Shown one piece after another: positions 11,001-64,000 of a DNA stretch of 64,000 nt; positions within the stretch are counted from its first letter, which is position 1, and the number at the start of each line of letters is the position of its first letter. The DNA is from Coprinopsis marcescibilis (taxonomy: Eukaryota; Basidiomycota; Agaricomycetes; Agaricales; Psathyrellaceae): positions 161,339 through 225,338 of the forward strand of contig ML210179.1 in NCBI GenBank assembly GCA_004369085.1. The letters run 5' to 3'. The position numbers were made by a program, and so were the translations under genes. The notes under the pieces were generated by a model, which made no database searches, was not told the DNA's origin, and saw only the letters and a program-made list of their open reading frames with translations.

Positions 11001-11447
11001 ATTTCCAAAGCCCTCCTTTCCGTCGAAGGGATAGACGTTAATGCTGTAAACTCGATGGGAGGGACAGCGCTGATGATAGCGTCATCCAACGGCCAGACCG
11101 AGATGGTCACATCATTGCTGACGTTCGACGGAGTCGATGTCAATAAAATGAACTTATTTGGATGGACGGCCTTGATGAAGGCGTCGTCTAATGGTCATAG
11201 CTCGACAGTGGCACTCTTGATGGAGAACACGGATGTGGATGTCAACGTACTCAGTCCGCGGCAAGGGTCCGCGCTAATCCAAGGGTCCAGAGTGGGGAAC
11301 AGGGAGGTGGTGGAGATTTTGCTTCGGAGCAAAAGGATCATAGTCGACGCCGCGGATGGTCATGGGAGAACGGCTTTATCTTGGGCCGTTCAACAAGGCC
11401 ATCATGATATTGAAAAGGTTTTGAATGCGTGGGGTACAAGGATGTGA
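8026..11447 (+). CDS. NACHT-domain NLR with C-terminal ankyrin repeats
   Basis: Seven exons, join(8026..8061, 8122..8254, 8310..8474, 8528..8552, 8612..9166, 9227..9570, 9634..11447), give about 1023 residues. After a short Gly/Asn-rich N terminus comes WLTLVNYRKIQ, typical of basidiomycete NACHT NLRs. The Walker A loop GIPGAGKT (about 109-116) follows, and its GAGKT core lies on a 25-base micro-exon. Walker B is VDGLDEA (near 8890-8910). The post-NACHT region includes HFTAKDYL across the last intron. From about residue 555 there are 13-14 ankyrin repeats of 33-35 residues (10040-11440) with GHT/TALM/VDVN consensus, and nothing after them. Fungal NLRs of this form act in non-self recognition and programmed cell death; the ligand is unknown. 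The last intron (63 bases, no stop) could also be retained in frame. No large N-terminal effector domain is visible. Confidence 0.88.
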
Positions 11448-11950: not shown

Positions 11951-12616
11951 ATGAAACTATCTACTACTATAAGCTCCATCTGTGTACTCCTCGTCTCTCT
12001 TCAGAATGTCCTCGCGACTAGCATCGAAGACCCCAGCGGGGGTCTCCAAGTGTCAGCTAGAGACTTTATGGACGTCGACGACATGGAAATAGACGCCAGA
12101 GATGTACGTCCTTATGAAAGTTACCGCTCTACAGACTCCAACTTATATGACTACTAAAGCTCGGGTTCGAATACGATGATACGCTCGCCAGTCGCGATGT
12201 CCTTGACAGCCTTAGTACACGGGAGCTGCTTGACGAGCTTTACATCCGGCGCGGAGGACGCATTGGAGGTAAGGCTGGCGTTAGCAGAATTGCGCCCGCT
12301 CGTCGTGGTGGTCGAACTCTGAGCCAACCGGCTCGGGAGATGAAACCTTGTCCAAAGTGCGGAAAGAGCTTCGGGCCTTCAATTGTAAGTCCCTCCTAGC
12401 CTTCCAGCCTCATACGAGCGCGTCCTGAATCCCTGAATCCTGACAATTCTACTCGTAGTACTCAACACATGTATTCGAGTGCAGTTCTTGGGTAAGTGAT
12501 CAATCCTTGCGCCATCACCCAATTATGGAATTGACCGGTTGGCCGTTTCATAGAAAGCAAGCGGGGGTGGCCGTATGGGATTGGGAGCTTTTGCAGGTCG
12601 CATGGGCGGCTTTTAG
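11951..12616 (+). CDS. Small secreted zinc-finger protein 1 (C2HC)
   Basis: Four exons, join(11951..12103, 12160..12384, 12459..12491, 12554..12616), give 157 residues. A signal peptide (MKLSTTISSICVLLVSLQ..LA) is followed by two Ala-Arg-Asp segments (VSARDFMD, IDARD), then the family helix STRELLDEL and a basic Gly/Arg stretch. A zinc-finger motif CPKC-x11-H-x3-C follows, then a Gly/Met-rich tail (SGGGRMGLGAFAG). The first intron (phase 0) follows ARD and the second cuts the finger 8 residues after its second Cys, exactly as in the 51-63 kb paralogues. Exon 4 is chosen because it keeps the frame and gives a Gly-rich tail like the 63.1 kb member; a stop soon after Cys is the alternative. Function unknown; see the family finding. 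Confidence 0.72.
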
Positions 12617-36486: not shown

Positions 36487-38866
36487 TTAGAGTTTGAGGC
36501 CAATGTTGACGTGCACAGATTTGGGTTGCGTATATCTTAAGTCACCCAAGTTTAGCACCCAGAAATAGTAAGAACAAGACCACGTACGTGTCAATGGCAT
36601 ACTGTCCCAACTCCCTTCCAATTCCGGACTGCTTGAATCCACCGAATGGCATTCCAATGTCGACCGACATGGTAGAATTGACCTATTAACACAGACAGGA
36701 AGTAAACACATGCGGAGAAGCGAACCAAGGGTGTACGACTTACAGCAACACTGCCAGCTTCCAATGCGTGTGCGACACGCAACCCACGTCCTATGTTCTC
36801 CGAGAAGACATACGCAGCGAGGCCATAGACAGTGTCGTTGGCCAGTTCAATCACCTCTACAGGGCATTGAGTAAGTTGAAATCAGCGTTCTTTAGAACCC
36901 AGGAACGAAGACTAACCTTGTTCAGTCTTGAACTTGAAGATCGATGCAACGGGACCGAAGATTTCCTCTCTGGCAATCTTCATATCCTTGGTGACGCCGG
37001 TGAAGATTGTTGGCTGGATGAAGAATCCCTTGTCCCCTGCTGGGACACCTCCGAGGTGGAGCTGGGCCCCACCTTCCTTGCCAGCATCGATATAGCTAAG
37101 AACACGCTATAAATCAAAGTCAATATTCAACCCCCGAGAGCAGAGCAACGTTAGAAAGGAAGAACAAACCTCGAATTGATTTTTAGAGACTTGCGGGCCA
37201 TGTCGAATACCCGCGCCAAACGGATCGCCGGTGGCAGCAATCAGCGATTTGGTAACAGCAGTGAACGACTCCAAGAACTTGTCGTAGATCCCTTCTTGCA
37301 CGAAAATTCGAGTTCCGGCTGTGCAGACTTGTCCCATGTTTCCACTAGGCAGTCGAGGCATGAGCAATGTTGAAGCAACGAGGCCAAGCTCAACAACTCA
37401 CTAGACACCCTCAGAAGCCCACTTGACGGCCTGCTCAACATCCGCATCATCGAAGACAATGGTCGGGCTCTTGCCTCCCAACTCCAGCGTCACCACCTTG
37501 AGGTTAGAGTCCGCAGCGGCCTTCAAGATCTTGCGTCCGGTAAGGGTGCTTCCGGTGAAAGCAACCTTGCTGATCTCAGGGTGTTCGGCGATTGCCTGGC
37601 CGACGGTGTGTCCGTACCCGTTGACGATGTTGACCACACCAGGAGGGAAGCCGGCTTCCACTACGAGGTCTGCGAAGCGCAGGGCGGTGAGAGGGGTGAT
37701 TTCAGAGGGTTTGAGAACGACCGTGTTTCCTGTTGCGAGAGCGGGAGCGACTTTCCAGCCGAGCATGCCCTATTTTTCATCCGGTTATTGTTGAAGGACG
37801 TAGGGAAGGAGAGGGAATACATACGATGGGGAAGTTCCAGGGGATTATTTGGCCCTATAGATGAAATCAAAGAATTATCGCCAGTTGTTAGCGAGGTTAA
37901 GTTATCACTGTAATCGTAGCTTACGCAAACGCCGAAAGGCTCGCGGCGAATGTATCCAAGTTTAAACTCCGAACCCTAACAGAAAGTGAAGGCGTAAGTA
38001 TTCCATCTTCCAGAGTATTTTGAAGACCTTTGCCCACCTCGACAGTCGATCCTTGGATCTTATCGGCCCAGCCGGCGTAGTACCGGAACACAGCGATCGC
38101 GCCACCAATATCCATCGCTTTAGACTTGGCAAAGACCTTTCCTGGAAATCAAAGTCAATACATCAACGCCAAACCCACTAAAAATCACGAGGTATATGGC
38201 AAAGATACCCACCGACATTGAGCGACTCCAACGCTGCCAGTTCCTCCGCATTCTTCTCGAGCAAATCCGCGAGCTTGTTGAGCAGCTTTGCTCGGACATA
38301 TCCTGGAGTTTTGGAACCCCACGACGTTTTGTATGCCTATGGTTGGTGTGATGATGGGAGGTGAAAATACAAGGCGCGATGAGATAAGAGCATGTTCAGT
38401 ACCGGGTTACGGCTATTAATAATAGCCACAAGGCTAAAGAGGACGTGTCACTCACCTTCTTCGCAGCGTTGACTGCTACATCGACGTCAGCCTTGGTTCC
38501 TCCGGAGACTTTGGTAATGAATTCGCCGGTTGCTAGTGCAAAACGTTTCGTTGAGTCCAATATCCAGATTGTAGCAACACAGGGTCGTGCGTACCAGGGT
38601 TTATCACTCTGAACAGCGAAATGATAGGTCAGGACGATCGAGAGGGAGATAAATATTGATAGGGGCTACGCACTCGATTTCTCCACCCTCAGCGGGAGCG
38701 ACCCATTCGTTATCGATAAACAATCTGATTATACGAGTGTGAAAGCATGGAAAAATCAGAGGGTTGATGTAAAATAGGCGTAAGCGGTTAGAACGCACCC
38801 GGTATGGACAGTAGCGGAACCCTTATAAGCGGGGGTGTCAAAGGTGTGAGTGTAAGTGGCGGCCAT
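36487..38866 (-). CDS. Aldehyde dehydrogenase (NAD-dependent, class 1/2-like)
   Basis: About a dozen short exons, starting [16 protein letters not shown] and ending in VHVNIGLKL at 36487, encode a protein of roughly 500 residues. Landmarks in order are [10 protein letters not shown], the INPGTG-type region, [40 protein letters not shown] and [11 protein letters not shown]. Then come [10 protein letters not shown] (catalytic Glu region), [12 protein letters not shown] (catalytic Cys), EEIFGPV and [18 protein letters not shown]. The exon holding the Cys loop joins across GTGAGT near 37397. The enzyme oxidises aldehydes to acids; cytosolic or mitochondrial location is not clear because the N terminus lacks an obvious presequence. 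A broken copy of its last two exons occurs at 16235-16438. Confidence 0.93.
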
Positions 38867-47011: not shown

Positions 47012-49446
47012 GGAGGCTGAGTGGGACCTGTAGTAGTAGGAGTAGGAGAAAGAGAAGGTAAAAGAGTTGATGCTTACTTCAGGGCTTCAACCCAGCCTTT
47101 TATACCCCAAGTCTTCAAGCGGCGCCTAACAGAACCACTGGCCAGATCCGATGTTACGCAGTCTGTACGTAATTGAGCGTTTTTCAGCCTTCCGTCAATC
47201 GAGATATCTTACCAATTACACAATGTGCGCCCAAAGCTCTTCTCGAGGACTTGAAAGTGAGACGGGTCGAGGATATCGTATTATCCAGCAGACAGGTAGG
47301 AAGATCTACGGGAGACTGAGAGGTAGACTGTACATGGCGGTAACGAAGCTCAACTATTCACTGAACGAGAGCGTATCAGATTGACGTCATTATCCCGGGA
47401 CGATGGTAACACATCGGCTCTACCATTGTTTAGGAAGATGCACGCGCATGTCGCAAAAATCAGAAATGTACTAAGCTCTCTCCGGGTGCCAAGGATATGG
47501 TAGCGCTCTGCATGTTGCGGCCGTGATAACGGCATCTTCTGGACGGTTTGTAATTTGTCCCACAGCTCATTTGTGATGGTGGGTGGTTTCGGGGACATGT
47601 AACCTTTTGGAGACCTTATGAGCCGCTCCTGGATTATGAAAGAAGAAGATACAGATGGGCTGAGCATGGCAGAATACCATCACACAATAGTGATGACTTC
47701 CATCCTAAGTCAGTCCTTCATCATTATCTCTTAACCTTCACTCTTTTAATCACTAATATGCTATCTTACATTGTTCTTGCGTTTATTGTTGTGGTATACA
47801 ACGTGTGAAATACTCATCAGCATCACATCCCTTCAGGTTTTCACCCACCTCGAGCCGAGTACAGGGAGAGTTTCCGGCATTGGCGGTGTACACCACGGGC
47901 GCTTAATAACCAACGAGTCCGATCGGATCACTGACTGCATATGGTCACATCTCCAATGTAGTGACCAACGCTCTCTAAGCTTCTCCAGGGTTGTGCGAAA
48001 GATTTGTGATATATTGCAACATGCCGTACTTTCATCTTGATTAGATGACTTACATTCCTTTGCTGCATTGCATTAGCGCAAGACCAAATTTCAAATTCCA
48101 GACTCTTTTATTGCATAATGCACACTGGGGATGGTAGAGCTCTAGTTCGCCTCCAAGTCTGCGCAGGATCTTTTTTGCCTCTTGGATGTTATTCCCAGCT
48201 CGCATTGATTGCACAAATAAATGCAGTCGATCTCACATTACTTAGTGCCCTGTGAAGCCTTTAGCTTGTTGATGCGAGAATTAAGCCATCACTTCACTTC
48301 TTAAGCGTTGAAGGGAAGTTCGCGCCATCGTCACTGGGCTGGCCCGGGTACAAGATCGCCCAATGGCCGCGCGGGCGCTTCCAAGGCAATGTTGAATCTC
48401 CGCAACAAGATTCAAAAATGTTGCATCTTGAGGCTCATTTGATAGCCTCTTATACCCTCAAAAGCTGCAGTTAGCTCATATTATTGGCATACTTCTAAAA
48501 TGAAAGCATGTGAAATTGTGGTGAAAGAATCAAAGGCTGAACTTCGAAGAAAAGTTCAAAGTTTAAGTGACTTGGCACGTGGTGCTCTGCGTGACTGTCA
48601 CGCGTGACGGCCCATTCTTCCGAGCGACGAGGACGAGGGCCTTCACTTTCCGTTCCCTGCCATCTCTCCAGCAAACATTCACGGTTTCAAGTTCAATCAC
48701 GCACTGTAACTAATTCCAACACAACACCGGCGATCCAATGGACTTCGCAATTGGGAGCGGACTGCAGTGCGATGGGGTGTAGTTTGCACCTGTGGTGAGC
48801 CAGGGCTCCTTTCCGCGATGGCCGCGTAAAACACGGTCTCTGCAACATGCTGCAAAGCCCCAGGGACTACCTTGAATTGACTGAAGCCTTAACAAAGCTG
48901 AGCGCTGATGTGCGATGCCTTTCGACGAGTGCACGATTCAACTCCCGCGCCGAACCGCCGCGGTCCGGCAATCTCCTCAGAGGTCCCACGCTGAGCATAC
49001 TTTGAGTTTTGCTCTCAATGGCGATGTCTCCAAATTCCCACTTCGACGTGAACATCACGTCGCCAATTGCAAATTGGACTTTATGCGCATATGGCCCAAT
49101 TTCACAAGTAGAAACGGGGGAACAAGCTTCATAAACGGTTTCTTTAACAAGACACTGTCAAGGGGTTTTCGGTGTCCTTCCTTCGAATTCCTTTCCCGCT
49201 ACAGACCACAACGTTGTCTCATCAACAACGCATACACTTCATGCGTCGAATGACTAGCCCCGGGCGCCATAGAGCCGCAGGTTGAAAGTTTAAGGCCAGC
49301 TCTATGATTCAAAACTCAACTCAAAGGATTTTTAACGAGGTGAGGGGTTCAACATCAAGTGAGCTTGAAATTAAGGATTGGGCGTGGGATAGCTCAGCAC
49401 TTTCTTTTCTACGCACAGGACTCTTTCCTTGAGAGTCCTTATCTAC
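47012..49446. other. Gene-poor stretch
   Basis: No recognised coding sequence or repeat structure in about 2.4 kb. Short frames on both strands overlap at random. A promoter for the secreted hydrolase probably lies within the first 200 bases. Confidence 0.4.
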
Positions 49447-50226
49447 CTACGCTGACTTAGGACCGAATAGTCTCACAATTTCTGTTCCCTGGGGTTGGGT
49501 GGTAATCGCAGCTGACCTGCATGAGGAAAATACAATGATATTGATATCTCCCAATTCATGAGTCCTCTTTGCTCCCCTGTTCCTTATCTTCATAATAGTA
49601 CAACCCGTCTGGATGTGGTATTCGTCAGGAAAATACCACTCGAAAGCGTCCCCGTGTTCACCTTCGTTCCAAGGACCGGTGTCAATAATATCGATCCTCG
49701 ATGTACCGTACGAAACCAATTGGTTCTTCTCAACTGAGATGTTGTCCACCTTCCCTTAATTTGACAAGGGTCGCCATGTGCGATTTCCACCCTTGCATTT
49801 CGATCCGTATCAGCCAATCTGTGACCTACACAGCCAATCGTGAGAGTCTGCAGTCTTAGCCCGAATTTTCCGGACGAGTTGCATTCTGCCAAGGGCCGAC
49901 TCCTAGCGCTGACTGTTGATCTCCATGAGTCAGGAAACTCGGAAAGAACCTGTGCACTTCCTTCCTCTGTAGTAGGCAATGGTAGGTCAGTGAAGGTTTT
50001 CAGGCTTGTGGAATAGTCAATCGCGATAGCGCGTCCACATGTAAAGATATAAATAAAATACTTCACGTTGCCAATGTAGGCAAGCCGTTCTACACATCAG
50101 TGGCCGCCATGGGCCATCTGAGTCGGAAATCCGGAAGGCACAACTTACCTTACGACGCATTTCAAACCTGGGAGTGTCGAACGTTGACAGGCAAAGGAGA
50201 CTTTTGGCCAAGATGTACCTGTACAT
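49447..50226 (-). pseudogene. Possible relic of an unrecognised gene
   Basis: A coherent protein can be followed over three segments on the minus strand: KSLLCLSTFDTPRFEMR, a GTAAGG..TGTAG intron at about 50153-50093, RLAYIGNVKYFIYIFTCGRAI to VEIAHGDPCQIKG, and VDNISVEKNQLVSYGTSRIDIIDTGPW. Between the second and third segments a one-base shift is needed (near 49760), with no suitable intron. Length and splice signals suggest a real gene that has lost its frame; upstream exons and domain identity were not found. Confidence 0.4.
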
Positions 50227-51106
50227 GAAACATGGTGTAATGCAGCCGGTGAGACAACTTACAATGTGGTTCCGCGCCTAAAATTTCCATTTCCGAAAGC
50301 TAATCTATCCCGACCTTGTGGCTGTCGCGCTTTGCCTCAAACAAGGTCCATCACAAAAATCAAGCCTCTCTGTACGCTACGGTCTCTCCCCACTGGTAGC
50401 CAAGTTCTTTTGCGCGATTACCGCGTTTCTTTGGCGCCCCAAACTCTGGTTCGTGGGCGAGACGAACGGCTGGTTTTAGAAACCTGACGTGAAGTGGGAA
50501 TGAGCAGGAAAGGGCCCAATTTATCGCAAGCTACTTAGGTGTGGGATTGAAGCTGCGGTGGGGCCAACGTTCTCCGCCGTATGATGGCTACAAGTACGTT
50601 ACCATACGGCCCTTGCCACCCGTCGTATGTAATGGACTACCTTCAACTACCCTAGTCAATTACTCAGTGTTAAGCACCAAGACGGAAATCTGGAACAGAA
50701 CTCTGAGTCCGAGTGGAGATATATATGCAGACGCAGTTGGAACTTGGGAGGTGGCGGGGTCTCGGACGAATATCACGAAACTTTGATGATGATGAACCAT
50801 CACCGCATGAGCGTTCCGTGAAACCGAGAATCCACTTGATTGGAGACCTTCCGCGGCAAAGAGAATCGTGAAAGAATCGAAGACAATTCGATTTTTCTCC
50901 GATTTCTCTTGTATATCTCGATAGTCTCATGATTCTCTTGCCTAAACTTGACACCCTGTGTTATGACTGCGTACGCGTAAGACAGCCAGTCTTCTGGTGA
51001 ATCTCTGCGTCGCTAACGCCGGTTCCCATCAACGCTATCGCTGTGCATGGCAGCGCAGGCGAGCGAGCGCTCGGTGCGCGTTAGCGATTTGCCACAGGTG
51101 AAGTGA
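50227..51106. other. Gene-poor stretch
   Basis: No gene recognised; short frames only. Confidence 0.35.
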
Positions 51107-51264
51107 ATCCGAGACAGCGCAACATCAATGCATAACCTCCGAGCCGGTTTCTCCAACTTAGGAAAGCTGGTTCGCATGGTAAGGGATCCGAGACAGCGCA
51201 ACATCAATGCATAACCTCCGAGCCGGTTTCTCCAACTTAGGAAAGCTGGTTCGCATGGTAAGGG
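51107..51264 (+). repeat. Tandem duplication, 2 x 79 bp
   Basis: A 79-base unit starting ATCCGAGACAGCGCAACATC at 51107 is repeated without visible change from 51186, ending just upstream of the TATA box of the secreted zinc-finger gene 2. It duplicates a stretch of that gene's upstream region. Confidence 0.9.
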
Positions 51265-51276
51265 ATCCTTGTGGGC

Positions 51277-51283
51277 TATAAAA
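51277..51283 (+). promoter_or_regulatory. TATA box of secreted zinc-finger gene 2
   Basis: TATAAAA 105 bases upstream of the ATG, directly after the 79-bp tandem duplication. Confidence 0.6.
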
Positions 51284-51381
51284 GCTGGCCCAATGCATCA
51301 ACAGGAAGTCAGTATCCAGTTTTCCACTCCTTAACTACTACACCCCCTCTCATAATCAATCTCCCACTACACAGTGCAAAG

Positions 51382-51820
51382 ATGCGCCCCTTTCACACTG
51401 TCATCTCTCTTTTCCTGCTCTTCTTCCTGTCCTTCTTGGCTGGAAACGTCTCTGCTCATGGCGACCACGGCGTTGAGCTGAGTGCTCGTGATATTATGCG
51501 CAGCGATGCCTCGCTCTCTGCCCGATCCGTACGTCTTCACCCTCCATGCGCCTCGACGAGCTCGCTGAACTGATATTTTATTCCTGTAGTTGGGCTTTGA
51601 AATGGACGAGTTCCTCGAGACCCGCTCCGTCTTAGCCGACATCTCCACTCGCGAGCTCTACGATGAGATCAAGGCTCGCGCCAACGAGTGGCAATGCGTT
51701 CGCTGCAACAAGTGGTTCAGCCACGCGAACGTGAGTCTTCTCCACAAGACGGCTCAGGCGTTCCTTTAATAATCACCCTTTCTTCGTTAGCTTCTCCTCC
51801 ACCGCAAGAAGTGCAAATAG
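51382..51820 (+). CDS. Small secreted zinc-finger protein 2 (C2HC)
   Basis: Three exons, join(51382..51528, 51590..51730, 51791..51820), give 105 residues. A signal peptide (MRPFHTVISLFLLFFLSFLA..) is followed by two Ala-Arg segments (ELSARDIM, SLSARS), LGFEMDEFLETR, the family helix STRELYDEI, and a C-terminal finger CVRC-x11-H-x3-C that ends the protein one residue later. Both introns are phase 0: the first follows the second Ala-Arg, the second cuts the finger after eight residues. It shares all landmarks with the 12.0 and 57.8-63.1 kb genes. Secretion is expected from the N terminus; function unknown. Confidence 0.8.
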
Positions 51821-53033
51821 ATCATGCGCACCCTCAGCTGAGCGCATCAGGCCACGGCTCTGAACTCAAACATTTAGACTCGAGGTGGCTTGGCGCACGC
51901 GGTTATGATCCACCCTCGCTGCTTAGGATAGTTATGATGTGTATCTTCTACTTTATAATAGAATCGGTTAGTGTCCTGGTGACACAAACCATGTTTCAAA
52001 CGCACATGGGTGTCGACGGGTTCTTTTCCATGGCCACTGAGATCCACCAGAGCACCAACGAGGTTTGCAAACGCGCTCCAACCTCTTCAGTACCACATCC
52101 TTGTCTCTGAAGACCTTTTCTTCAGTTCTCCGAGAGCACTACAAAGTCACCGCGGACGTATCATAGCCTTTGACCTTTGTTCAAGGTATCTTCATCATCG
52201 CTCAGTCAAGTCTCTCAGCCATCAGTACAGCCAAATCCTGAAATGGGAATGTCGTCCTGTGTGTCTAAAATGGTGCTACAGTCGTCAAGCAAACATGCTA
52301 CAAACTTCGAGCTTGTTGTTGGCCAAGATGTATGACTGCATTTATTACAAGACTTGAAGTACCTCTGAGAAATTGAGTACTTCAAACATTTTTTATATTG
52401 GTAATCAGAGTTATGTTGATGGACTCGTATCTCTAGCTCCATCTCCAAGTATGGACTTCTTGAGCGTGTCTCGGTTAGGAGGCGTCAGGCCTCACGAGCT
52501 TGGAAAGCTGCTCTGCAGGCCCCATTACAATCGGGATTAAAGATCCCAGGAAGCGCATATCAGGACTGGTGGAGTTGAAGTCGGATTCTCTGATATCTAA
52601 AAACAAGGGTCCAGCTTTGTGAACTGATACTATGAAACGAGGAAGACGAAGGAGACCTTACTGTCGAACTTTCGGATTGCTAAAGCATCAAATTAGCGCC
52701 CAGAAAGATGCGAAAGTCATTTTGTCAAGGAAGCCATCGAAGTCCTATGCGCTCTTCCCGTAGACAGACTGATAATATATCTGTCTTGGCCCCATTCACT
52801 GTGTTCATGAGTGTCGACTTATACGACGCCTTCCACTTTTACCATATTGCCAAGCCTAACTCTGCACGTGAAAGTCACGCCACTCGTGTCACGTCGCACA
52901 ATGCCAAGCACTTCGCCCAGAAAAATACTGCTACTCGTAACTCGATCTTCTCCTCTTCGTTCTTGACCATTAGGTCGATATATCCCACTTATCGTGCATC
53001 TTGAAGATCAGCACACAGCCTGAACCTCATTGG
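51821..53033. other. Intergenic
   Basis: No gene recognised in about 1.2 kb; the last few hundred bases serve as the MRH4 upstream region. Confidence 0.4.
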
Positions 53034-55981
53034 ATGTCGTTACTATCGAATAGGCTAAGCCCCAAGCTCTTACGCCTCCAAACTTCCAGCCATGTCACAG
53101 TGACTCCGGAAGCCTTTTTTCATTCATCCGCCACGAACCCTTGGGAAAGCCGGTCAGGAGACCGAGAGGGACCTAGGTCCGCTGGGTTTAGGAACAGCTC
53201 TAGGGGTCGTGGCACCAGTAATTCTGGTGGGCGTGGTGGACGAGGAGGGCGAGCGCAGTACAGCAGTACGTTAACCAGTCCGTTTCTTTATGGTTTATCT
53301 CTCGCTCAACTCCGACTATAGGGGGTGATAGCTCTCGTGCATCCACAACATCGGCCCCAGTAAGTGGTCGAAGAAGACTTGTGGACCTGAAGTCGACCGG
53401 TGGTCGTATGGAAGTCGCGCGAGACCCGCAGAACGACAGTACGTTTGCCAGTTCATCTCTTTGTCCTTTTTGCTTATCGCATAACTCGCGCTACAGGAAG
53501 CGATAGGCCTCGTACACCAACGATACCTGCCCCAGTAACTGGACGAAGAAGATTTGAGGACCCGAAGTCGACCGGTGGTCGGCGGGAGGTTGCGCGCGAC
53601 CATCCACCCCACCAAGCAGAGGGTGAAGGAGCGCGTGCGCCACACAGGGAATATACGAGATCACCGGAAAGACAACCTCGTCGCGAGTCCCACTCTCGTG
53701 CTAATGGGCATCGTGTTCCAGATAGGCAGTCCCAATACGAGCCTTATTCTCGAGGTCAGGGACCGCGTCCTGGTCGAACTACCGACTCATCAACCGAGTT
53801 TGCCAGGCCCGGCATGTCAGCGGCACCTAAACATCCCAAACCTCATGCCCCGCTCAACTTTGGGTCGCCAATCACATCGCCCGAATTCGCACACCCACCG
53901 GCACTCGTTACGACTAGCTCGTCAAGCACGCCCATATCCAGCCCTCTACCGCCCACCTTCACTTCACCACCTCTTCTTCCTGGCCTTTTATCTTCAGTAG
54001 AAGACTTCTTGGGGCCCAAATCCAAACCGACACCTATCCAGGCACTAAGTTTGAAGTGGATTATGGATTACAGCAACCAAGACGAAGGGCGTCCATTTGA
54101 GTACGGCGAGTTTCTGCTAGCGAGCGAGACTGGATCTGGGAAGAGTTTCGCATACCTCTTGCCCGTCTTGCAAGGCGTAAAAGTATTAGAGATGAAGGAG
54201 AGGGAAGTGGCAGAACGGTTGGCGAGGGGAGAAGCGAGCGAAGAAGATCTGGCCAGCGTTAACAAGAAAACTTCGACTTCATCGGATTACCTGATGACCC
54301 CCCGCGCTATCATCCTCGTTCCCACCCACGAGCTGGCACGACAAATCTCGGCATTCGCCAAGTCCCTGCTACATACGACCAAACTTCGGGTGGTGTGTGC
54401 AAGCCAGACAAATGTGGACCTTAAATCGACTAAGCCTCGAACTGCTTCTGGTCGGAGGTTGGATGTGTCGTCGAGGGACATGGCAGCTTCCCTCGATACA
54501 TTTTCGGAGCTGGAATCTGGCGATTCCGGAGAGTCAGCCTCACCTCTATCGCATGACGTCGACGTCCTCGTCGGTACGCCGATGAAGATTATGGAGATGA
54601 TTCGTGGACGAGGCTGGGATCTTGCCAGCTCAGACTTTTCTACTGACGATGTCAAAGGGAAACTGAGGCGGGGAAGGGATGTCGGACGCATTCCAGCCTA
54701 TCCAAAGGGACCTGAAGCCGAACGGTGGGCCGATGTGGGCCAACACGGGCAGCAGCAACTCGGTCTGGGTAATATAGAGTGGGCAGTAATCGATGAAGCT
54801 GACGTTCTTCTCGGTGCGTCAAAAGTTTATTTGATTTGCTCGTGCCTGGTTAACAGATCTCTGTTCCTGTATTTCTAGATCCTGACTTCCAAGAAGTCAC
54901 TCGCCTGCTCCTGTCAGATGTCAGCAAAGCCAAAGGGCACATTATCCCAGTCGATAATTTCCCCACTGGCTCCCCTTCACCGCAGTCCGCCACCACCGAC
55001 TCCGGAAATCCAGTCGAATATCCCTTCAATTTCCTTCTCTCCACTGCCACCATTCCCTCTTCCCTCTCGAACTATCTGTCTTTATGCCACCCTAACCTCC
55101 TCAAACTTGCTTCTCCCAAACTACACAAGTTACCCGACACGCTGAAAGTGGACTACGTCAAATGGACCGGAGGAAACCGATTCAAGGATGTTGAGAGGCG
55201 TATTAGGGAGGTGTGGGCGCAGGATGCTGTGGAAGTCGATAGTCGTCGAAAGGCCGCCTACGGTCGACAAGAAACTGCGAAACCGGCCTTGTCCAAAGTT
55301 CTGATATTCTGCAACAAAAGCGCGAAGGTGCAAGAGATGAGTCGGTACCTAGAGGAGAATGGTATCTTGAACGTTGCCGTGACGAGCGGGCGGGAGGTCC
55401 AGAGGTTGGATGCCCCGACTGAGGATGGTACTCCTGGGTCGAACAAGTTACCTGCGAGGGGCAGGGGAAGCAACAAATATTTGGGAGGCTTTTTGAAGCC
55501 TATCAGACCTGCCAACTCGGGGTCCAAAATAGAAGCGACTGATGCAGCAGCTCTGACGACGAGACCGAAACTGAAGAACCCTCACATGCTCTCGGACCCA
55601 TCGACTACCCCGCACGTACTAATTACCACATCGCTCCTATCGCGTGGACTCGACTTTGATCCGGAGGTGAAGAACGTGTTCATTGTGGATGAGCCGAGGA
55701 GTATGGTTGACTTTTTGCATCGGGCTGGAAGGAGCGGCAGGATGGGTGGGATCCCTGTTGGCGGTGCTGCTTCATCCAGTGGCGCTCCAGCCGCTGCAGG
55801 CCCTGCGAGTGCTGGCGGTAGGGCACCGGGTCTAGTTGTCATCTTTGGACGTGGCGGACCGGGGAGCATTTCTGCGAATGTGGGGTTGAGTGGGGATAGG
55901 AAAGTGAGGTTGGTCGGTGGCGTTGGTGGCAGTCTGATTCGGAAGGGTGGAGGGAGGGAGAGGACCCTTGGGAGGGTGTAG
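53034..55981 (+). CDS. MRH4: Mitochondrial DEAD-box RNA helicase Mrh4
   Basis: Four exons, join(53034..53265, 53322..53438, 53497..54813, 54879..55981), give about 922 residues. The N terminus (MSLLSNRLSPKLLRLQ..) is basic, without acidic residues, fitting a mitochondrial presequence. RGG-like and Arg/Ser-rich segments follow. Helicase motifs: ASETGSGKS (I), PTHELARQI (Ia), VDVLVGTP, IDEADVLL (II), LSTATIP in place of SAT (III), LIFCNKS (IV), LLSRGLDFD (V) and HRAGRSGR (VI). DEAD with STATIP and long inserts is characteristic of Mrh4, which acts in assembly of the large mitochondrial ribosomal subunit. The C terminus has an Ala/Gly-rich insert after motif VI. Exon 2 and the start of exon 3 are tandem duplicates. 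Start chosen at the presequence Met rather than 33 bases upstream. Confidence 0.9.
53266..53610 (+). repeat. Tandem exon-intron duplication within MRH4
   Basis: Two about 173-base units, each an intron plus the following exon, are alike. Both introns begin GTACGTT and share CAGT and TCGC strings before the acceptor. Both exons encode TI/TT-x-AP-V-[ST]-G-RRR..D.KSTGGR.EVARD. The result is a doubled 39-residue linker segment in the protein. Confidence 0.8.
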
Positions 55982-57694
55982 GTGATGTCGGTTTCCTGTT
56001 CACGCGTTGCGTCCCGGCAGTCAGTGGAGGTTGGGGAAGAGCTTCCTGTGGATCTATCCAAATATAATACATCCCCCTGGTATGTATAATACGTAATTAA
56101 ATAATTCAACCCATACTCATTAGACCTGACAGCCTCCGAGCTTAGATAGAGGAAAATCACGAAGTGGATAGAGTACATGAATTTGCTTCACAGGTCTCCC
56201 TGCGCCTCATAGAGATGTGACTGAGTTTTACATTGCAACTCCCTGCCTACCTAGTACCCGGACGTTGCACGAATGGATGTCTAAGGTTCGGTTAGACCGG
56301 TTTTAGTGCTATATAGAGCCAACAAGCTGGGGCTGCCTTCAGAAGCCACCAAAATCAGTCTGGAGAGATGTAGTAGTGGTAGGCACGCTAAGGGTGTTCC
56401 AGACTTTGATGGATGAACCAAACAAACAGCGGAAGCCTGGGTGACAGTCTGTTCAGTCAGATCTCCGAGTATCCCTGCATGTTCTACAAGCCTAGGCAGG
56501 CTCATCAAATCTGTTAGCTTATATTACCGTAGGGAACGACAACAACCGCCGATGGTCACATCGCGACCCTGAAACAGCGGCCACCGGGATAACTCAATCT
56601 CGGCATTCACAAATTCGCACATTTTTGTACTCGCTCTTGATGGAAAACACATCCTGCTTTATTGTTCTATGCAGGCTAATACATCATATAGAACAGCTAA
56701 ACGGATGATGGACAGCACAGATTCTCAATGCGTCGACCATGATGCCGTTCGTTTGCCGTTGAGTATGGAACACCAATGGAGACAGATCTTGGTTTTGAGC
56801 GCCCTCGTCGAAAATTACACACACCCGAACAGCCCAAGTTGGGCGGCTGATACAGGCTGATACAGTTACATACCAAGTAGTGGCACACGTCGATGAGTAA
56901 TCTTAGGAGTCGTCTTGGCTGCACGCGCGCCCATCTACGTGCAGTACATTGATGTGTGGACTTGGACACCCGAACAACCCAAGGCGGGCGGCTCAAAGTG
57001 ATATCCGCCAAGAACCACCCCAGTGTTCCAACTTCCCGCCCCCGCCCGTTCGAGTTCATAGTCCAAGTTACTCTTTTAGTTTTGTTTGGGGGTGACTCTG
57101 CAAGGTACCATTGCCGATGTATGCAATTTGACGGGCCCCAGTCTCAGAACAGGGTACCTGCAGGTTGCTAAGGATAGAGCAACCCATGCGCTTACGGCGG
57201 ATTAAACGTTAGCTTGTAATTGAAATTGACCCCGGAACAAACCGTGATGTAAGAGAATCTGATGTGAATGCCGCACATGCAATGCGTTCACCGTTGTGCG
57301 AGGCTATGAAATTTCATGAACGTTGGCATCCAGAGCGGAATACTATTAGGCGCCCATGGCCCCTCAATGGTACAGAAATAAGGCCAGAGGTGGACTGGGG
57401 TATCATCCTATCATCCTCTATTACTATGATGATGCATCTGAGTATGGGCTGGAGAGTCAAGGAGCCAGAATGTCAGTGACGGGAGTACGATCCATTGTTC
57501 CGACGCTAGCCAATCTCTCTTGACAGATTGAGCGGCGCTGGCTCAACAAAGGACAATTCGGATCCTTCCAATTATAGCGGTACTGCAGCAGGCCTTCAAT
57601 CCTTTCGAACATATCTGTTCCTTATCAACCCGCCTCTTACGGGGATCTCGCAGTCTTACATAGCCGAAATATGAGCTACAGTGCACTCCCAGGG
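55982..57694. other. Intergenic
   Basis: No gene recognised in about 1.7 kb. Two related strings (CACCCGAACAGCCCAAG near 56823 and CACCCGAACAACCCAAG near 56968) hint at a small local repeat. Confidence 0.4.
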
Positions 57695-57700
57695 TATAAA
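57695..57700 (+). promoter_or_regulatory. TATA box of secreted zinc-finger gene 3
   Basis: TATAAA 78 bases upstream of the ATG, within GGTATAAAGGGCTACCA, a block almost repeated 89 bases upstream of the next paralogue (GAGTATAAAGAGCTACCA). Confidence 0.65.
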
Positions 57701-57772
57701 GGGCTACCATAGTGTGTCTCTAGGACATACTCACAATCAGCACTCATATTTCCCTCATTCAAGTCCCACACA

Positions 57773-58257
57773 ATGCGCTACAACTTTATCTTCGGATTCG
57801 TTCTCTTTTTATTCATGTCCGTCGGAAATGTACTGGCGCACTCGCGCGGTGCTGTCAACGCTGAGGTCGCCGCTAGAGGCCTTTTAAACGTCGTTGACAA
57901 GATGTCGGTTGGAGCTAGACAGGTCAGTGGACGCTTCCACGACCTCAGGCTGTCGTCATAACTCACGAATCCTCCTCGCAGTTCGACGATATAGAGGATT
58001 ACTTGGATCGCCGGGAGCTACTCGAAGATCTTACTACCCGCGAGCTGTACGAGGAGCTGAATCGCCGCGTCATCCTCTATCCGGGCGGGCCAAACTCGAC
58101 GAAGATGAGGTGCGACCTTTGCGGTAACATGATCCCAACAAAGGATATAGTTGTGAGTATTAGGTTTCCACTGTGTCAGACCCACTTACTTAATATAACG
58201 GATTATCAGACACACCGATGGCAAGCCCATGCAAGGCGCAGTGGTGGAGGCCAGTAG
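57773..58257 (+). CDS. Small secreted zinc-finger protein 3 (C2H2)
   Basis: Three exons, join(57773..57922, 57982..58152, 58210..58257), give 122 residues. A signal peptide (MRYNFIFGFVLFLFMSVGNVLA) is followed by AARGLL and GARQ segments and an FDDIEDYLDRRELLEDL stretch. Then come the family helix TTRELYEELNRR, whose final Arg-Arg could be a Kex2-type cleavage site, and the finger CDLC-x11-H-x4-H with a basic Gly-rich tail (ARRSGGGQ). Introns are phase 0, at the same places as in the other members. It is close to the genes at 59940 and 61869, clearly by tandem duplication. If cleaved at Arg-Arg, a peptide of about 45 residues carrying the finger would be released; this is inference. Confidence 0.83.
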
Positions 58258-59850
58258 ATTAATAGTATGGACTACCACCATCAACAGGGCCATCGAGCTG
58301 CGGGCGGGCTCCAGCATCCTCAGAGAACCCGCGTTACCTTTAACTAGCCTTATGATGTGCAAGTACCTGGTGTCAGCACTACATACGCATACATTCCTTC
58401 ACACAATGCATTCCTTTCGAAGTTTGCTCCGCATATTCATATTGGCTTAGGAATTCGATAATCGCCCACCTACTAACCCTTCCCTGTCACATTGAAAATC
58501 GAGGCACCACCAACTGCAACACGCGTGGCGTGGGCGATAGGCGCTGGGACCAGTAGTAAGCAATACATCAGTACCAGCACAAGTACGTATACAACCTCTC
58601 AGATCTCAGCGCTGGTCAAACTGAAACATTCACACAGCTGGAACATTCCGGATGCTTCATACCCGAGTTATACATGCCGGTCAGGGCCGTCAAGGTGCTT
58701 CGTCAGTCCAAAAGGACCGCGTCGATGTACGGCACATAGGTCTGGGTATCGTCACTGTGTATCAGATGCTCTCCAAATTGTTTCTTCTTAGTGACTCATA
58801 GTGGTCCACGCATGGTACGATGCGGTGGTGTAGAAGCTGATTCGGAGAGCCAGAGTTCCTGTCCGAGGTTTCATGGTTTGGTGGTTTCATGGTTGGTAGG
58901 TTAGCTTTTACCCCGGCGGTAACCTTGTGGGCGACCATGACTAACGGGCGGGACTGAAGATCAGTAACTCGTATGGTGATACACTATTTGGTACGTAAAG
59001 ACTACGCTTCTTAAACGGGAACTTTAGTTTCCGCCGGTTTCTCTACGCCAAAGCATCCTCAAGAAACAGTTGGAGACCTGACGACCCATAAACCAACCTA
59101 GGCCAGCTTTGCGGAGACCGAGTTTAGTTTTAAGAAGTTTCAAAGTATGGAAATTTGGCTCGCAGAGAACTCGAAACTAGTGGAAACCCGGAAACTGAAA
59201 CCACTTTACTGATGCTACTGGGCGCCCCAACAGTCTGTGAGAAAGACGCTACTAAGACACAAATTTATTAGCCCATGAGGAGTTGATCGTGATGTTGATC
59301 TGAAGACGGCTGAGGTAATATGTAAAGCTCCACACCTTTGAGGCAACTCGAGTAAAGGATCAGCGAGTAGGAGCTGCCGGGCCATGGGTCTGATCGTGAT
59401 GGTAGCGCCCCTACTACGAGCTTGCGTAACCTGAAGCGCTCATGGCTCCTTGAAGCGACGTCATAGGCCAGAAGGCAGCCTCGTTCCATTTGGTGAGTAG
59501 CATGAGTAGCTTGTACACAGAATTGACAGTGCTTATGGAATTGCTAGCATTTCTTGTACATGTAGAGGTTTTAGCGTCTCATCGAGAAATTATGACTGGC
59601 TGGGTCTGATGACTTTGGCAAATACAGCTCAAAATGCATTTGCTTAATCCGCTTTCGTATGCTGATTCAAAAACCGGCACGCCACGAAAGTGCAGAGATT
59701 GATGATGCGCCCGTGATTGCACATACTTCGGCGGTGACATGGAGATCTCGGTCAAAAACCCGTCAACACCTAGAGCACATCGCTCGTGCTCGTATGTTGA
59801 AAAACTGGCGGGGATCTGAACAAACAACGAAACACAGCATACGCCTGGAG
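58258..59850. other. Intergenic between tandem paralogues
   Basis: No further gene. The 3' flank holds GAGCTGCGGGCGGGCTCC (58296-58313), recurring in related form after the next two paralogues (about 60465 and 62430), so the 3' untranslated region was duplicated too. Confidence 0.5.
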
Positions 59851-59856
59851 TATAAA
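59851..59856 (+). promoter_or_regulatory. TATA box of secreted zinc-finger gene 4
   Basis: TATAAA 89 bases upstream of the ATG. Confidence 0.65.
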
Positions 59857-59939
59857 GAGCTACCAGGGTGTATACCGAGGACATATAAGCAGCCAACTTC
59901 TTTCACTCTCTCAAGTCAACTCCTTCCTTTATCAACACA

Positions 59940-60418
59940 ATGCGCTATAACTTTATCTTCGGATTTGTCCTCTTTCTCTTCTTCTCCGCCGGAAATGTAC
60001 TGGCGCACTCGCGTGGTGCTGGCAATGCTGAAATCGCCGCTAGAGGCCTCCTGAATGTCGTCGACAAAATGTCAGTTGGAGCCAGAGAGGTCAGTGGCCG
60101 CTTCCAAGAGCTGTCGTCATAACTTAGTGAATCTTCCTGCAGTTCGACGATATTGAGGACTATTTGACACGACGGGACCTGCTTGAGGATCTTACTACCC
60201 GCGAGCTGTACGAGGAGCTAAACCGCCGTGTCATCCTCATTCCGGGAGGCTCTAAGGCCACCCAGATGAGGTGCGACATTTGCAACAAAATGGTCCCAAC
60301 GAAGGATATCGTTGTAAGTACCTACATGCAGTACCTTGATATTAGTTGCTGAAACAGTGCTTTGTTTTAGACGCACCGCTGGAATGCTCACGCAAGGCGC
60401 AGTGGCGGAGGCCAGTAA
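59940..60418 (+). CDS. Small secreted zinc-finger protein 4 (C2H2)
   Basis: Three exons, join(59940..60089, 60143..60313, 60371..60418), give 122 residues, the closest paralogue of protein 3. It has the same signal peptide start (MRYNFIFGFVLFLF), AARGLLNVVDKMSVGARE, TTRELYEELNRR, a CDIC-x11-H-x4-H finger and an ARRSGGGQ tail. Exon lengths equal those of protein 3 exactly (150, 171, 48). Differences lie mainly between the helix and the finger (SKATQ against NSTK) and in finger residues (NKMVP against GNMIP), all of which keep the Cys and His ligands. That pattern fits selection on the finger. Confidence 0.84.
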
Positions 60419-61771
60419 GCTCCTGGTCAATATGACCAGAGCTACAAATAGACGAATAGTCATTCGAGTTGCGGGCGGGTCCTAAAATACTCCAAGTACT
60501 ATACATTTCAATTTGAATGCGCTACATAGGCCCATTCAAAAGTGACATCGAGCTATTTGCATGCTACACTCCTTTAATAAATGTACTCATCGACACGCAT
60601 AACGAGTCCTCTGTATACATTCAACGAAAGTCCGTCCAAGCTCATACAACGTTTTTGAGCGAAGGGCTCGTACAGCCAGTCGGTTAAGAACCTTGGTAAG
60701 CATTCATAGCATAGATAAGGTCGCTTATGAAGTCAGTACAAAAGGAGCTGTGGGCCTGGCTCATGATGTAAATATTTATGTTTGAGAGTGCGGTTTGCGT
60801 AGGAAGCCAACTATGAGACAGACTTCTGAAACTCGGAGGCTAAGGAGTAGTTAACCGTATCGCCTTGATTCCATGACGGAGAACGGGTTTCTATACATCA
60901 CTATCGCCGGGGACCCAGGGCGTTTCTTCCGTAAAGTTGGCCTGTAGTGAAAGTCATGTGCCGTTAATTCTGTGTCTGGCCTCGGTGTGGCCTGTGTTGT
61001 TCCCATCACTACCCTCTCGCGCACTGATGGGTCCACTCCTTGACTCACCAGCGGACTGCTAACAGCGGCTTAGCGCCCAGGTAGGGCCTGATGATCCATG
61101 CGTGAGCACAAGCCGCCGCATCAGATGGGCCAAATGCTCGCCATCGGGTACACGCAACCGAAACCCGAGTCCATCTTCGGGCTGAGCCGAACGCAATGCG
61201 ACCTTGGTTTCGGTAGGACACTGGTGCATGCTATATATGTATGAGTATATATAGGGTACAGGCCGAATCCCGTTTACATAGTCAAGGGCTTCCAATCCGC
61301 ACATGAGGTATCCACTATCCGATTCAGAACCCCAAAGCACGCATGCACATCATACTCCAAGTCCTTCATATGTTTCGACAACTGTAAAATATACTGATGC
61401 GCCAGTTCCAATCCAGTGATCCGATCATGATCGTGTGTAAGCGCTCAGCTGCGTGGATCCCAACGCCTGTCGCCTTCCCATCCATCAGTGCTTTGCTCAG
61501 CGACGCAATTGAAATCAACAATACTCGTGAGTCCGCATGCGTTGCTCGGAGTTTTTAGGACAATCCACCCGGCTTCAGGAATATCTGGTACATACAAACG
61601 CGTAAGCCGCCATTGTCACGGATTGGTCAAGGACTGAAATCGCGCTTTTGATCGTACGCAAGCCCCGACTTGGAGATCTCGGCCAAGGCTGCAGGGAAGG
61701 AAACCCGCCATGACGCACCAAGCTCACTACAACGCATAGATCGAACTGTGGGCAAGCAGGGAGGCTCGGAG
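60419..61771. other. Intergenic between tandem paralogues
   Basis: No additional gene seen. The conserved GAGTTGCGGGCGGGTCC block lies at about 60467-60483. Confidence 0.45.
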
Positions 61772-61777
61772 TATAAA
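61772..61777 (+). promoter_or_regulatory. TATA box of secreted zinc-finger gene 5
   Basis: TATAAA 97 bases upstream of the ATG, again inside a GGAGTATAAA context. Confidence 0.6.
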
Positions 61778-61868
61778 TATCCACCAGCGATTGGTATTGG
61801 AGAGCCAGCAAACTACCTTTCTCCTCCCTTTCACGAGCTAGTATCGCTCGAGGATCACGTACCACACA

Positions 61869-62323
61869 ATGCGCGCCAACTTCATATTTGGCTTCGTTCT
61901 CTTCCTCTTCCTCTCCTTCGGGAACGTACTGGCGCACTCCAACGCTGGCAACGGCAATGCTGACGTCGCTGCCAGAGACCTGTTAGAGGTCGACAATCTG
62001 TCATTCGAAGCCAGGGAGGTGAGTGTCAGGACCCCGCTACCTATTTATACGTCTATGTCTATAACGTTCCCTCTCAATCTGCACAGTTCAACGACTTTGA
62101 TAGCTCTCTTGAGCGCCGTGAAATGACGGAGCTCACGACTCGCGAGTTGTACGAAGAGCTGAACCGCCGCGTTGTTCTAATCGGTAGCAGGATGAGATGC
62201 CATCTTTGCGGGCGGATGATCCCGAACTGGGATATCATCGTGAGTGCAGTCTTGCACGCTCTTGAGTTCGTCACTCTAATATCGTTTCAGCGACACAGGT
62301 GGATGGTCCACGGAAGGCGCTAA
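61869..62323 (+). CDS. Small secreted zinc-finger protein 5 (C2H2)
   Basis: Three exons, join(61869..62018, 62087..62239, 62291..62323), give 111 residues. A signal peptide (MRANFIFGFVLFLFLSFGNVLA) is followed by AARDLLEVDNLSFEARE and SSLERREMTEL. Then come the helix TTRELYEELNRR and the finger CHLC-x11-H-x4-H, directly followed by GRR and stop, so the Gly-rich tail of proteins 3 and 4 is missing. Exon 1 length (150) equals that of the two paralogues upstream. A Trp replaces Lys in the finger loop (PNWDII against PTKDIV). Confidence 0.83.
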
Positions 62324-63017
62324 ACGCTCCTTACCAACATGGCTATCGCGTCGTGAGTACAAGTCCACTGCCTTTGGTATATTTAGCTTCAACATTGTAA
62401 AATTACAATAGGGAAGGTTGCAAAGCAACTGAGTTACGGGCGGGCCCCACATACTTAAACGTTTCCGACCTACTAGTCTCCACTTAGACGTGCTCTACAT
62501 ACACTCATTCGCATAATGCATATTAAATCCCTGTCATAATACACTCAATCCCATCACCGGAGAGTAAAGCAGAATAGCACAATATATTTCTCTTCTCACA
62601 TGTGACCAAAATTCGCCATATAGATTATTATCACTATCTTCAGCGGCGAACAGGCGAGCGCTGGACAAGGATTCTTAGAACAGCCATAGACCTCAAAAAC
62701 GAGACCTACAACTTACTTACGTCACACTTTACCCAACCCATAGCGTAAAGGTATCGGCAAAGTCAGGCGAGCGCCTTAATCCCTTGATTAGCATCTCCAA
62801 TGAGTCCAATCACACAAGGACCACGAGCTCGTAATCAAGGCGGTGCCCGCCGTTGCTAACAACGTATTTGAGAGTATTGGACAGTCACATCACCGCAAAT
62901 CCGGCGATAACATTGAAGCGTTCCGCTTCATACCAATTTTAAGCGCACGACAAAACCAATCGCCGGACCCTCAGAGCCCAGCATGCGTCCTACCGCATCT
63001 CATACATCGGGTTTCCC
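62324..63017. other. Intergenic
   Basis: No gene. The conserved GAGTTACGGGCGGGCCC block lies at about 62431-62447. Confidence 0.45.
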
Positions 63018-63024
63018 TATAAAA
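63018..63024 (+). promoter_or_regulatory. TATA box of secreted zinc-finger gene 6
   Basis: TATAAAA 104 bases upstream of the ATG. Confidence 0.6.
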
Positions 63025-63121
63025 GCGAGAGCAATTAGTCGAGATTCTTCACAACACAAACCAAGCCAATCCAGCTTCACCAAATCCACACACAACTCCC
63101 AAACGCATCGTTAAATTCGCC

Positions 63122-63584
63122 ATGCGCCAATTCAGCACCCTCATCTCTCTCTTCCCTCTCATTCTTGTGTCCTTGCTAGCAGAGCAGGCCTCTGCTCGCA
63201 ACCACTACGACCTTGACTTTGCAGCAAGGGATTTCGGCGACTACGACTGGGGTCTCGACGCCCGAGATGTGCTCCAGGACATCAGTACCCGCGAGCTCAT
63301 CGAGGAACTGCATGCTCGTGCCGATCCTGCACAAATGCCCTCCTGCCCCAAGTGTGGCCAGGTCTTCGCTTCCGTGGCATTGGTGAGTAGACTGGAGACC
63401 ATTCTCGCGAAAACGATGTGCTAACCCTGTCTCGCTCCCACAGCTCAAGCTGCACAAAGATTCTTGCGGAAAGAAGGGTGGACCAGGGGGTTCTGGAGGT
63501 AGCAGTGGAGGTTCTGGAGGAAAGAAGGGTGGACAAGGCGGAGGTTCTGGAGGAAAGCCTATCAAGATCAAGCAGATCAAGTGA
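63122..63584 (+). CDS. Small secreted zinc-finger protein 6 (C2HC, Gly-rich tail)
   Basis: Two exons, join(63122..63382, 63444..63584), give 133 residues. A signal peptide (MRQFSTLISLFPLILVSLLA..) is followed by AARDFGDYDWGLDARD, then directly the helix STRELIEEL and the finger CPKC-x12-H-x3-C. A long Gly/Ser/Lys tail follows, built from repeats of GGSGGKKGG, ending KIKQIK. The first family intron is absent: AR-D is joined to VLQD without interruption, and the 13-residue middle segment is missing. The finger intron is kept, in phase 0, nine residues after the second Cys. The basic Gly-rich tail could bind nucleic acid or cell wall polymers; this is not shown by sequence. Confidence 0.8.
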
Positions 63585-64000
63585 TGGACAGGGAGAGCAA
63601 GTGTCACCGTTCTCACCTTTCTACATAGCGCATCATGTATTTATTACTTTATTTCAATGCCGACAAGCACATTGCATTGGTCTTCTCTTCTTAGTATGCG
63701 CGGAAGGGTGTAGAGACTGGGACTTGGCTGCGACCAGCCAAGCCCATCTCTGTTCTCCTATCACAACACATCTCGCACCCAACAGCGCCAACACGGTGCA
63801 ATCATTTAGGCGCCTGATCACGTGATCACCGAAACTTCGAGATTCCCGCCCATTGCAAGCATCCCTATGCCCCTTCGAACCATATCTCCGCCCCAAAACA
63901 CCTCAACTCCACTCTTTCGATCATCGGGCACCATCTTTGGACTTCATCTCGCTTCCGAGCACCCAACAAAGCCCAGAATTGGCTTAGTGCGTGGGAAACC
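63585..64000. other. Intergenic at window end
   Basis: No gene is supported before the window ends. Confidence 0.35.

Follow-up and report, generated by a model that had tools for sequence, protein, structure and literature searches.

The window analyzed here, a 64,000-nucleotide stretch of the genome of Coprinopsis marcescibilis (C34:161339-225338), carries six genes of a family of small secreted-type proteins, each with a single zinc finger behind a conserved acidic leader. The existence of this gene family, proposed in a preliminary description of the window, was confirmed. We consider it probable that the products are secreted pre-pro-proteins from which Kex2-type cleavage would release a zinc mini-protein acting outside the producing cell. 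Secreted single fingers are already known; what is new here is the conserved leader with a changing metal-peptide cargo, found in Coprinopsis, Ephemerocybe, and a Laccaria record.

Gene models and protein features

The six genes were rebuilt from the window DNA. All models read through, and all introns were GT..AG and in phase 0.

g11951: 11951..12616, forward strand, four exons (11951-12103, 12160-12384, 12459-12491, 12554-12616), 157 residues; C2HC finger CPKCGKSFGPSIYSTHVFEC; Gly/Arg-rich tail from the fourth exon; paralogue C245_a
g51382: 51382..51820, forward strand, three exons (51382-51528, 51590-51730, 51791-51820), 105 residues; C2HC finger; near copy on C219 (P0004)
g57773: 57773..58257, forward strand, three exons (57773-57922, 57982-58152, 58210-58257), 122 residues; C2H2 finger
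g59940: 59940..60418, forward strand, three exons (59940-60089, 60143-60313, 60371-60418), 122 residues; C2H2 finger; tandem sister of g57773
g61869: 61869..62323, forward strand, three exons (61869-62018, 62087-62239, 62291-62323), 111 residues; C2H2 finger
g63122: 63122..63584, forward strand, two exons (63122-63382, 63444-63584), 133 residues; C2HC finger with an x12 spacer; Gly/Lys-rich tail

Each protein begins with a hydrophobic signal-like N-terminus, followed by an acidic leader that is punctuated by Ala-Arg, contains TREL[YLI][DE]E[LI], and ends in TRELxxE[LI]xxR; 26-76 residues lie C-terminal to the invariant Arg. Signal peptides were assigned by visual inspection and from an AlphaFold helix at residues 3/4-22/23. 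With this signal-like start and lengths of 105-157 residues, the proteins fall among the fungal small secreted proteins (SSPs), defined as having fewer than 300 residues and a signal peptide (PMC7105643). The finger, a single C-x2-C-x11/12-H-x3/4-[CH], is interrupted by the phase-0 intron at 8 (g11951 and g51382), 9 (g63122), or 10 (g57773, g59940, and g61869) residues past the second Cys. Its spacer is x11 in five proteins and x12 in g63122, and the last ligand is Cys in g11951, g51382, and g63122 and His in g57773, g59940, and g61869. Five genes have a first intron after Ala-Arg-[D/S/Q/E/E], and g63122 lacks it.

The preliminary description had reported the six genes with their leader, TREL helix, finger, and phase-0 intron, a first intron shared by five of them, and a last ligand divided equally between His and Cys; all of this was borne out by the rebuilt models, and the genes were further supported by the substitution ratios given below and by identical deposited predictions. 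One correction concerns its cluster of five members: a DEAD-box-helicase-like gene (approximately 53.1-56.0 kb, identified by a Helicase_C match) sits between g51382 and g57773.

Among the deposited NCBI predictions, P0001 equals our model of g57773, and P0004 and P0005 equal the models of two copies outside the window. Our searches returned seven deposited proteins from this genome, four of which (P0002, P0003, P0006, and P0014) are spliced in a way that costs them the finger: P0002 (g61869) has lost the second half of the finger, P0003 (g59940) is without it, and in P0014 (g63122) it is lost. The finger is intact in the affected genes under the splicing given in the preliminary description, and with four of seven models concerned, corrected splicing is a practical matter.

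Two AlphaFold models predicted a strand-strand-helix finger with a predicted local distance difference test (pLDDT) score of 77-88. Pfam finger matches were sub-threshold for three of the six window proteins. For the classical C2H2 family PF00096 (cut-off of 25.2 bits), g63122 was the only one of the six listed (16.0 bits), and for zf-C2HC_2 (PF13913, cut-off of 27 bits), g11951 scored 19.8 bits as a whole protein and 24.2 bits as a finger alone. We do not claim a classical C2H2 transcription-factor origin, as no window protein reached the Pfam cut-off.

Copies across the genome and selection

Exon searches over the 36.3 Mb, 448-contig genome, in which match counts are lower bounds, located further copies on C219 (three), C245 (two), C332 (two), and C34 (one, at 116 kb). 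These comprise five intact genes, one 5'-truncated gene (C245_b, without the signal-coding start), and two broken copies. Together with the six genes in the window, the family has 14 loci, of which 12 have an intact finger and 11 of those 12 also a signal-like start. The six members initially described are therefore all real but do not exhaust the family, the genome having at least 12 intact-finger loci (one 5'-truncated) and two broken copies.

The broken copies (L034) lie next to each other on C332; by eye, the signal part of one contains an in-frame stop and the other is frame-shifted at the TREL core, which we describe as birth and death of copies. A leader-like stretch with the core TRDLLDELYTRR was also observed on C34 at 24 kb (L039), for which no finger could be modelled.

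Of the 12 intact fingers, 11 have an x11 spacer and one (g63122) has x12; seven end in H-x3-C and five in H-x4-H. The intron lies 8 or 9 residues past the second Cys in all seven H-x3-C fingers and 10 residues past it in all five H-x4-H fingers. The fourth ligand and the intron position thus co-vary without exception (12/12), and the family falls into two subfamilies that are told apart by the last ligand and differ in the kind of last exon. As the third and fourth ligands are encoded together on one short last exon, exchange of this exon would be easy and is a possibility.

The ratio of nonsynonymous to synonymous substitutions (dN/dS) was 0.12-0.33 in all seven pairs computed, which indicates that the exons are real coding sequence under purifying selection. 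The tandem pair g57773/g59940 gave a dN of 0.089 and a dS of 0.69 (ratio of 0.13), and g51382 and its C219 copy gave 0.025 and 0.14 (ratio of 0.18). The corresponding dN and dS values were 0.229 and 0.836 for g57773/C219_15953 and 0.243 and 0.729 for g59940/C219_15953. In the remaining three pairs, dS was high: g11951/C245_a (dN of 0.366, dS of 1.304, ratio of 0.28), g57773/g61869 (0.242 and 2.05), and g57773/C219_29948 (0.40 and 1.44). dN was higher after the leader than in the pro-region in six of the seven pairs, with the ratio still below 1, and was nearly equal (0.25 and 0.23) in g59940/C219_15953. Between g11951 and C245_a, the tail GGGRMGLGAFAGRMGG (encoded by its own exon at 12554-12616; C245 L035) is nearly unchanged, whereas roughly half of the remaining residues past the leader are identical; the tail may be what is constrained in this branch.

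Relatives in other mushrooms

Three profile searches for homologues were performed, and the 7991-7997 candidates with the most shared words were scored, which makes the taxonomic range found a minimum. They returned 30 proteins, seven from C. marcescibilis and 23 foreign: 14 from Ephemerocybe angulata, two from Coprinopsis cinerea, one from Laccaria bicolor, and six further proteins. A signal-like start was seen in 17 of the 23 foreign relatives; it lies past an N-terminal extension in P0026, P0015-P0018 begin inside the leader, and none was seen in P0022. The protein of L. bicolor S238N-H82 (P0007) has the record name 'ectomycorrhizas-regulated small secreted protein', which is shared by P0013 of Ephemerocybe.

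A leader profile was made from 11 C. marcescibilis proteins minus their signal part, with 10,000 shuffled sequences as decoys. With the family defined by a match to this profile and its TR[ED][LI]xx....R core, all 23 foreign relatives belong to it, scoring above the best decoy (21.5-41.3 versus 11.3 bits); with the finger profile, none did so (best of 7.8 versus 9.7). As the relatives were retrieved through alignments containing the leader, the leader score is favoured by selection, and it is the difference between the leader and finger results that carries the information. Across species, the conserved part is the leader rather than the finger.

The C-termini of the relatives are varied. Like the proteins in the window, P0007 combines the leader (AREF..AREA..LTTRELVDELNERLARR) with a four-ligand motif at the C-terminus, but its ligands are C-x2-C-x12-C-x3-C. 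Ephemerocybe proteins have C-x4/5/6-C-x12/13-H-x3/4-H, P0025 has a C-x2-C-x12-H-x3-C finger, and further relatives have other Cys/His sets. Cys is absent past the leader in P0011 and P0030, both from C. cinerea, and in P0022, which is perhaps partial. Four of the six further relatives appear to run into an intron 9 residues past the second Cys, as in the window family.

SSPs common to ectomycorrhizal fungi and saprotrophs have been reported (PMC4649063), and a leader family in Coprinopsis and Ephemerocybe together with the Laccaria record fits this statement. Among the titles and abstract starts listed in literature searches of the open library, none described such a leader family, and no paper was found there for the shared record name or for CC1G_11020.

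Putative processing sites

Of 35 proteins scanned by script, 24 have KR or RR after the invariant Arg and ahead of the first Cys; these include the Cys-free P0011 and P0030, in which the dibasic pair is near the C-terminus. By eye, five more proteins (g57773, g59940, g61869, C219_15953, and C245_a) have a pair ending on the invariant Arg itself.

P0023 of E. angulata has three identical 37-residue Cys-rich cores, each preceded by LERR. After the first and second cores comes a further Arg, completing a Lys-Arg pair, and then a REFLEDF..LERR spacer similar to the leader unit. KEX2-processed repeat proteins (KEPs) consist of a signal sequence and repeated peptide cores between KEX2 sites (PMC9769878), and P0023 has the same layout, which supports Kex2-type processing. 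This protein is a natural test case for such processing.

The KEPs of Agaricomycetes resemble the family in their signal sequence, basic cleavage sites, and peptide cargo, with P0023 in the repeat layout (PMC9769878). The window genes differ in encoding a single, larger cargo with metal ligands and zero repeats, and KEP membership was rejected for them, as there is no repeated core. Cylindracin/PRI3 was also rejected, no pro-region of a comparable kind being described in the portions of the literature drawn on here.

Proposed mechanism and alternatives

In the reading that we favour, the hydrophobic N-terminal segment would direct the protein into the secretory pathway. The acidic leader, in which [Ala/Thr/Arg]-Arg-Glu-type units recur up to a terminal TRELxxE[LI]xxR(R), would be a pro-region; its removal would most likely fall to a Kex2-type protease cutting at the closing basic residues. 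The released C-terminal peptide would fold round one zinc ion into a strand-strand-helix mini-domain. The cargo would change fast among copies and species while the leader stays, with copies arising from tandem and inverted duplication and some decaying. The released peptide would work outside the producing hypha, on competitors, on partners, or on the fungus's own tissue. The signal-like starts in 11 of the 12 fingered loci (C245_b being truncated) and in 17 of the 23 foreign relatives are consistent with this, as is the constancy of the ligand spacing over all 12 fingers.

Several results weigh against it. KR or RR is missing at the leader end in six of the 35 proteins (g51382, g63122, C219_7172, C219_29948, the truncated C245 copy, and P0026). 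No finger family was found at E ≤ 1 for g57773, g59940, and g61869, and all Pfam finger matches were under the curated cut-offs. The finger profiles fail to link the species, so the cargoes may be non-homologous, and the leader result itself was favoured by the way in which the relatives were found. Cleavage at either Ala-Arg or Arg-Arg had been proposed initially; Arg-Arg is backed by the KR/RR pairs of the relatives and by the tandem cores of P0023, and Ala-Arg, unlike the dibasic sites, has no independent evidence.

A broader reading, which we put forward tentatively and with clearly less assurance, is an Agaricales leader-and-cargo system. One conserved, repeat-built pro-region (xARE units leading to TRELxxELxxRR) could serve many unrelated or very fast-evolving cargoes, such as tandem metal-peptide arrays, basic peptides free of Cys, and single zinc mini-domains with several ligand sets (C2HC, C2H2, C4, and wider-spaced C2H2). 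In C. marcescibilis, where two exons build the finger, swapping the short one that carries the third and fourth ligands could change ligand type and specificity, and Laccaria could have recruited a saprotroph member as a mycorrhiza-regulated protein.

Secreted single fingers have precedents, contrary to the initial impression that such a family was unfamiliar (PMC11213319, PMC7672089). The ZiF effectors of Magnaporthe oryzae (AVR-Pii type) are likewise small and secreted with one C2HC finger, which is needed for stability and has the ligands C-x2-C-x12-H-x1-C, as derived from Cys51, Cys54, His67, and Cys69 (PMC11213319). The family here differs in having H-x3-C or H-x4-H instead of H-x1-C and in its TREL leader, which is not described for ZiF in the cited portions of that source; M. 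oryzae is also an ascomycete plant pathogen. ZiF membership of the window genes was rejected, as none of the 12 fingers has H-x1-C. The AVR-Pii fold was absent among the structure matches listed, and such lists exclude nothing. MoHTR1 and MoHTR2 of the same fungus combine a signal peptide with a single C2H2 finger, as in the window family, but these proteins were shown to reach rice nuclei and bind DNA (PMC7672089), which the present family is not known to do. By the MoHTR-type standard of a single C2H2 finger with basic flanks, five of the 12 fingers are C2H2, and the flanks of the 12 are unevenly basic.

With these precedents in mind (PMC11213319, PMC7672089), the proteins might be effectors that enter the cells of another organism, where the finger, cleaved or not, would bind DNA or a host protein as in MoHTR1/2 or AVR-Pii. 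The record name of P0007 and some basic residues beside the fingers point the same way. We regard this as unlikely, since the source species and most named relatives belong to the saprotrophs Coprinopsis and Ephemerocybe, no uptake signal or host is known, and finger residues other than the ligands are not conserved between species. The earlier proposal of secreted peptide precursors or effectors stands in its first half: the proteins are precursor-like and apparently secreted, with a conserved pro-region and a C-terminal finger-like mini-domain. An effector role in host attack is not supported for C. marcescibilis, and the sole link to symbiosis comes from the name under which the Laccaria relative is recorded.

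Less likely still are secreted proteins with a developmental or structural role in the fungus itself, in its fruiting body or cell wall; the leader would then stay uncleaved, and the finger would just stabilize the C-terminus. The tandem cores of P0023 between RR and KR and the rapid turnover of copies and cargo argue against such a role, even though SSPs are abundant in fruiting-body secretomes (PMC7105643), the dibasic leader end is missing in 6/35 proteins, and the TATA boxes in all six promoters fit strong regulated expression.

Ubiquitin-binding zinc fingers (UBZ), known from polymerase eta, RAD18, and WRNIP1 and with a Sgf11-like fold, are intracellular. They share the strand-strand-helix and C-x2-C-x11-H with the present fingers, and they are among the nearest folds listed for one model. 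The spacing and the polymerase eta match make it attractive to suppose that UBZ-like fingers are secreted to bind ubiquitin in other cells, but this is very improbable. The scores were weak: zf_UBZ matched four of 13 fingers at E ≤ 1 (best E of 0.015) and zf-WRNIP1_ubi two of 13 (best E of 0.0019), and the g11951 finger reached 13 bits against a cut-off of 25.6. TRAF, CTCF, and C2H2 fingers match the P0004 model equally well, and C2H2 arrays outscore optineurin for g63122. The acidic helix residue two positions past the first His, needed for ubiquitin binding, is Asp in one of the 12 fingers (g63122) and missing in the other 11; a term search of PMC8784325 did not find the polymerase eta residue numbers for this rule. 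Intracellular or membrane-anchored proteins, although zinc fingers are commonest inside cells, are scarcely credible in view of the signal-like starts at 11 of 12 loci and in 17 of 23 relatives, with no second hydrophobic stretch or endoplasmic-reticulum-retention end seen by eye in the family proteins and no relative with a known intracellular role found.

Why saprotrophic mushrooms carry so many effector-like SSPs, and whom these affect, has been named an open question, and Pleurotus Ssp1 is multi-copy in Agaricales (PMC7105643). A compact, duplicating family with a recognisable leader in such a fungus means that members can be found, expressed, and cut. How such a peptide family enters symbiosis could be tested directly on the Laccaria member, whose record describes it as mycorrhiza-regulated. 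Under the favoured reading, the known fungal peptides would gain a metal mini-domain that is secreted and possibly released by Kex2.

Promoters and genomic setting

A TATA[AT][AG] box was found 51-150 bases upstream of the ATG in all six window genes and in 9 of the 14 loci, counting the broken and truncated ones. The background was 7.0% of random 100-base window stretches, giving P ~ 6e-8 for 9/14 for a motif that was noticed prior to being tested. In the six window genes, the boxes lie 60-105 bases upstream of the ATG. TATA boxes of this kind point to regulated, strong expression.

The following segment is duplicated around one of the genes.

Segment around g51382: 51186..52005, with an inverted copy on C219 (7365-6543), 83% identical over 836 columns

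Weaker and shorter C219 matches are present across 48964-50803 of the window. It is unlikely that g51382 and the C219 copy are alleles, as the two lie in opposite orientations with 83% identical DNA and each contig holds further distinct copies. An aldehyde dehydrogenase exon (PF00171) at 37401-37769 on the reverse strand has two related stretches on C219 (L031), and thus other genes are also duplicated between these two contigs.

The end of the window (63707-64000) falls within a dispersed repeat, of which at least six other contigs hold close copies (89-98% identity). Its last 44 bases are the exact start of C219, which suggests that C34 and C219 are neighbouring contigs; as this 44-mer lies in the dispersed repeat and has eight exact copies in the genome, the adjacency is not proved. 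Directly upstream of g11951, a 745-residue open frame on the forward strand (9210-11447) consists largely of ankyrin repeats.
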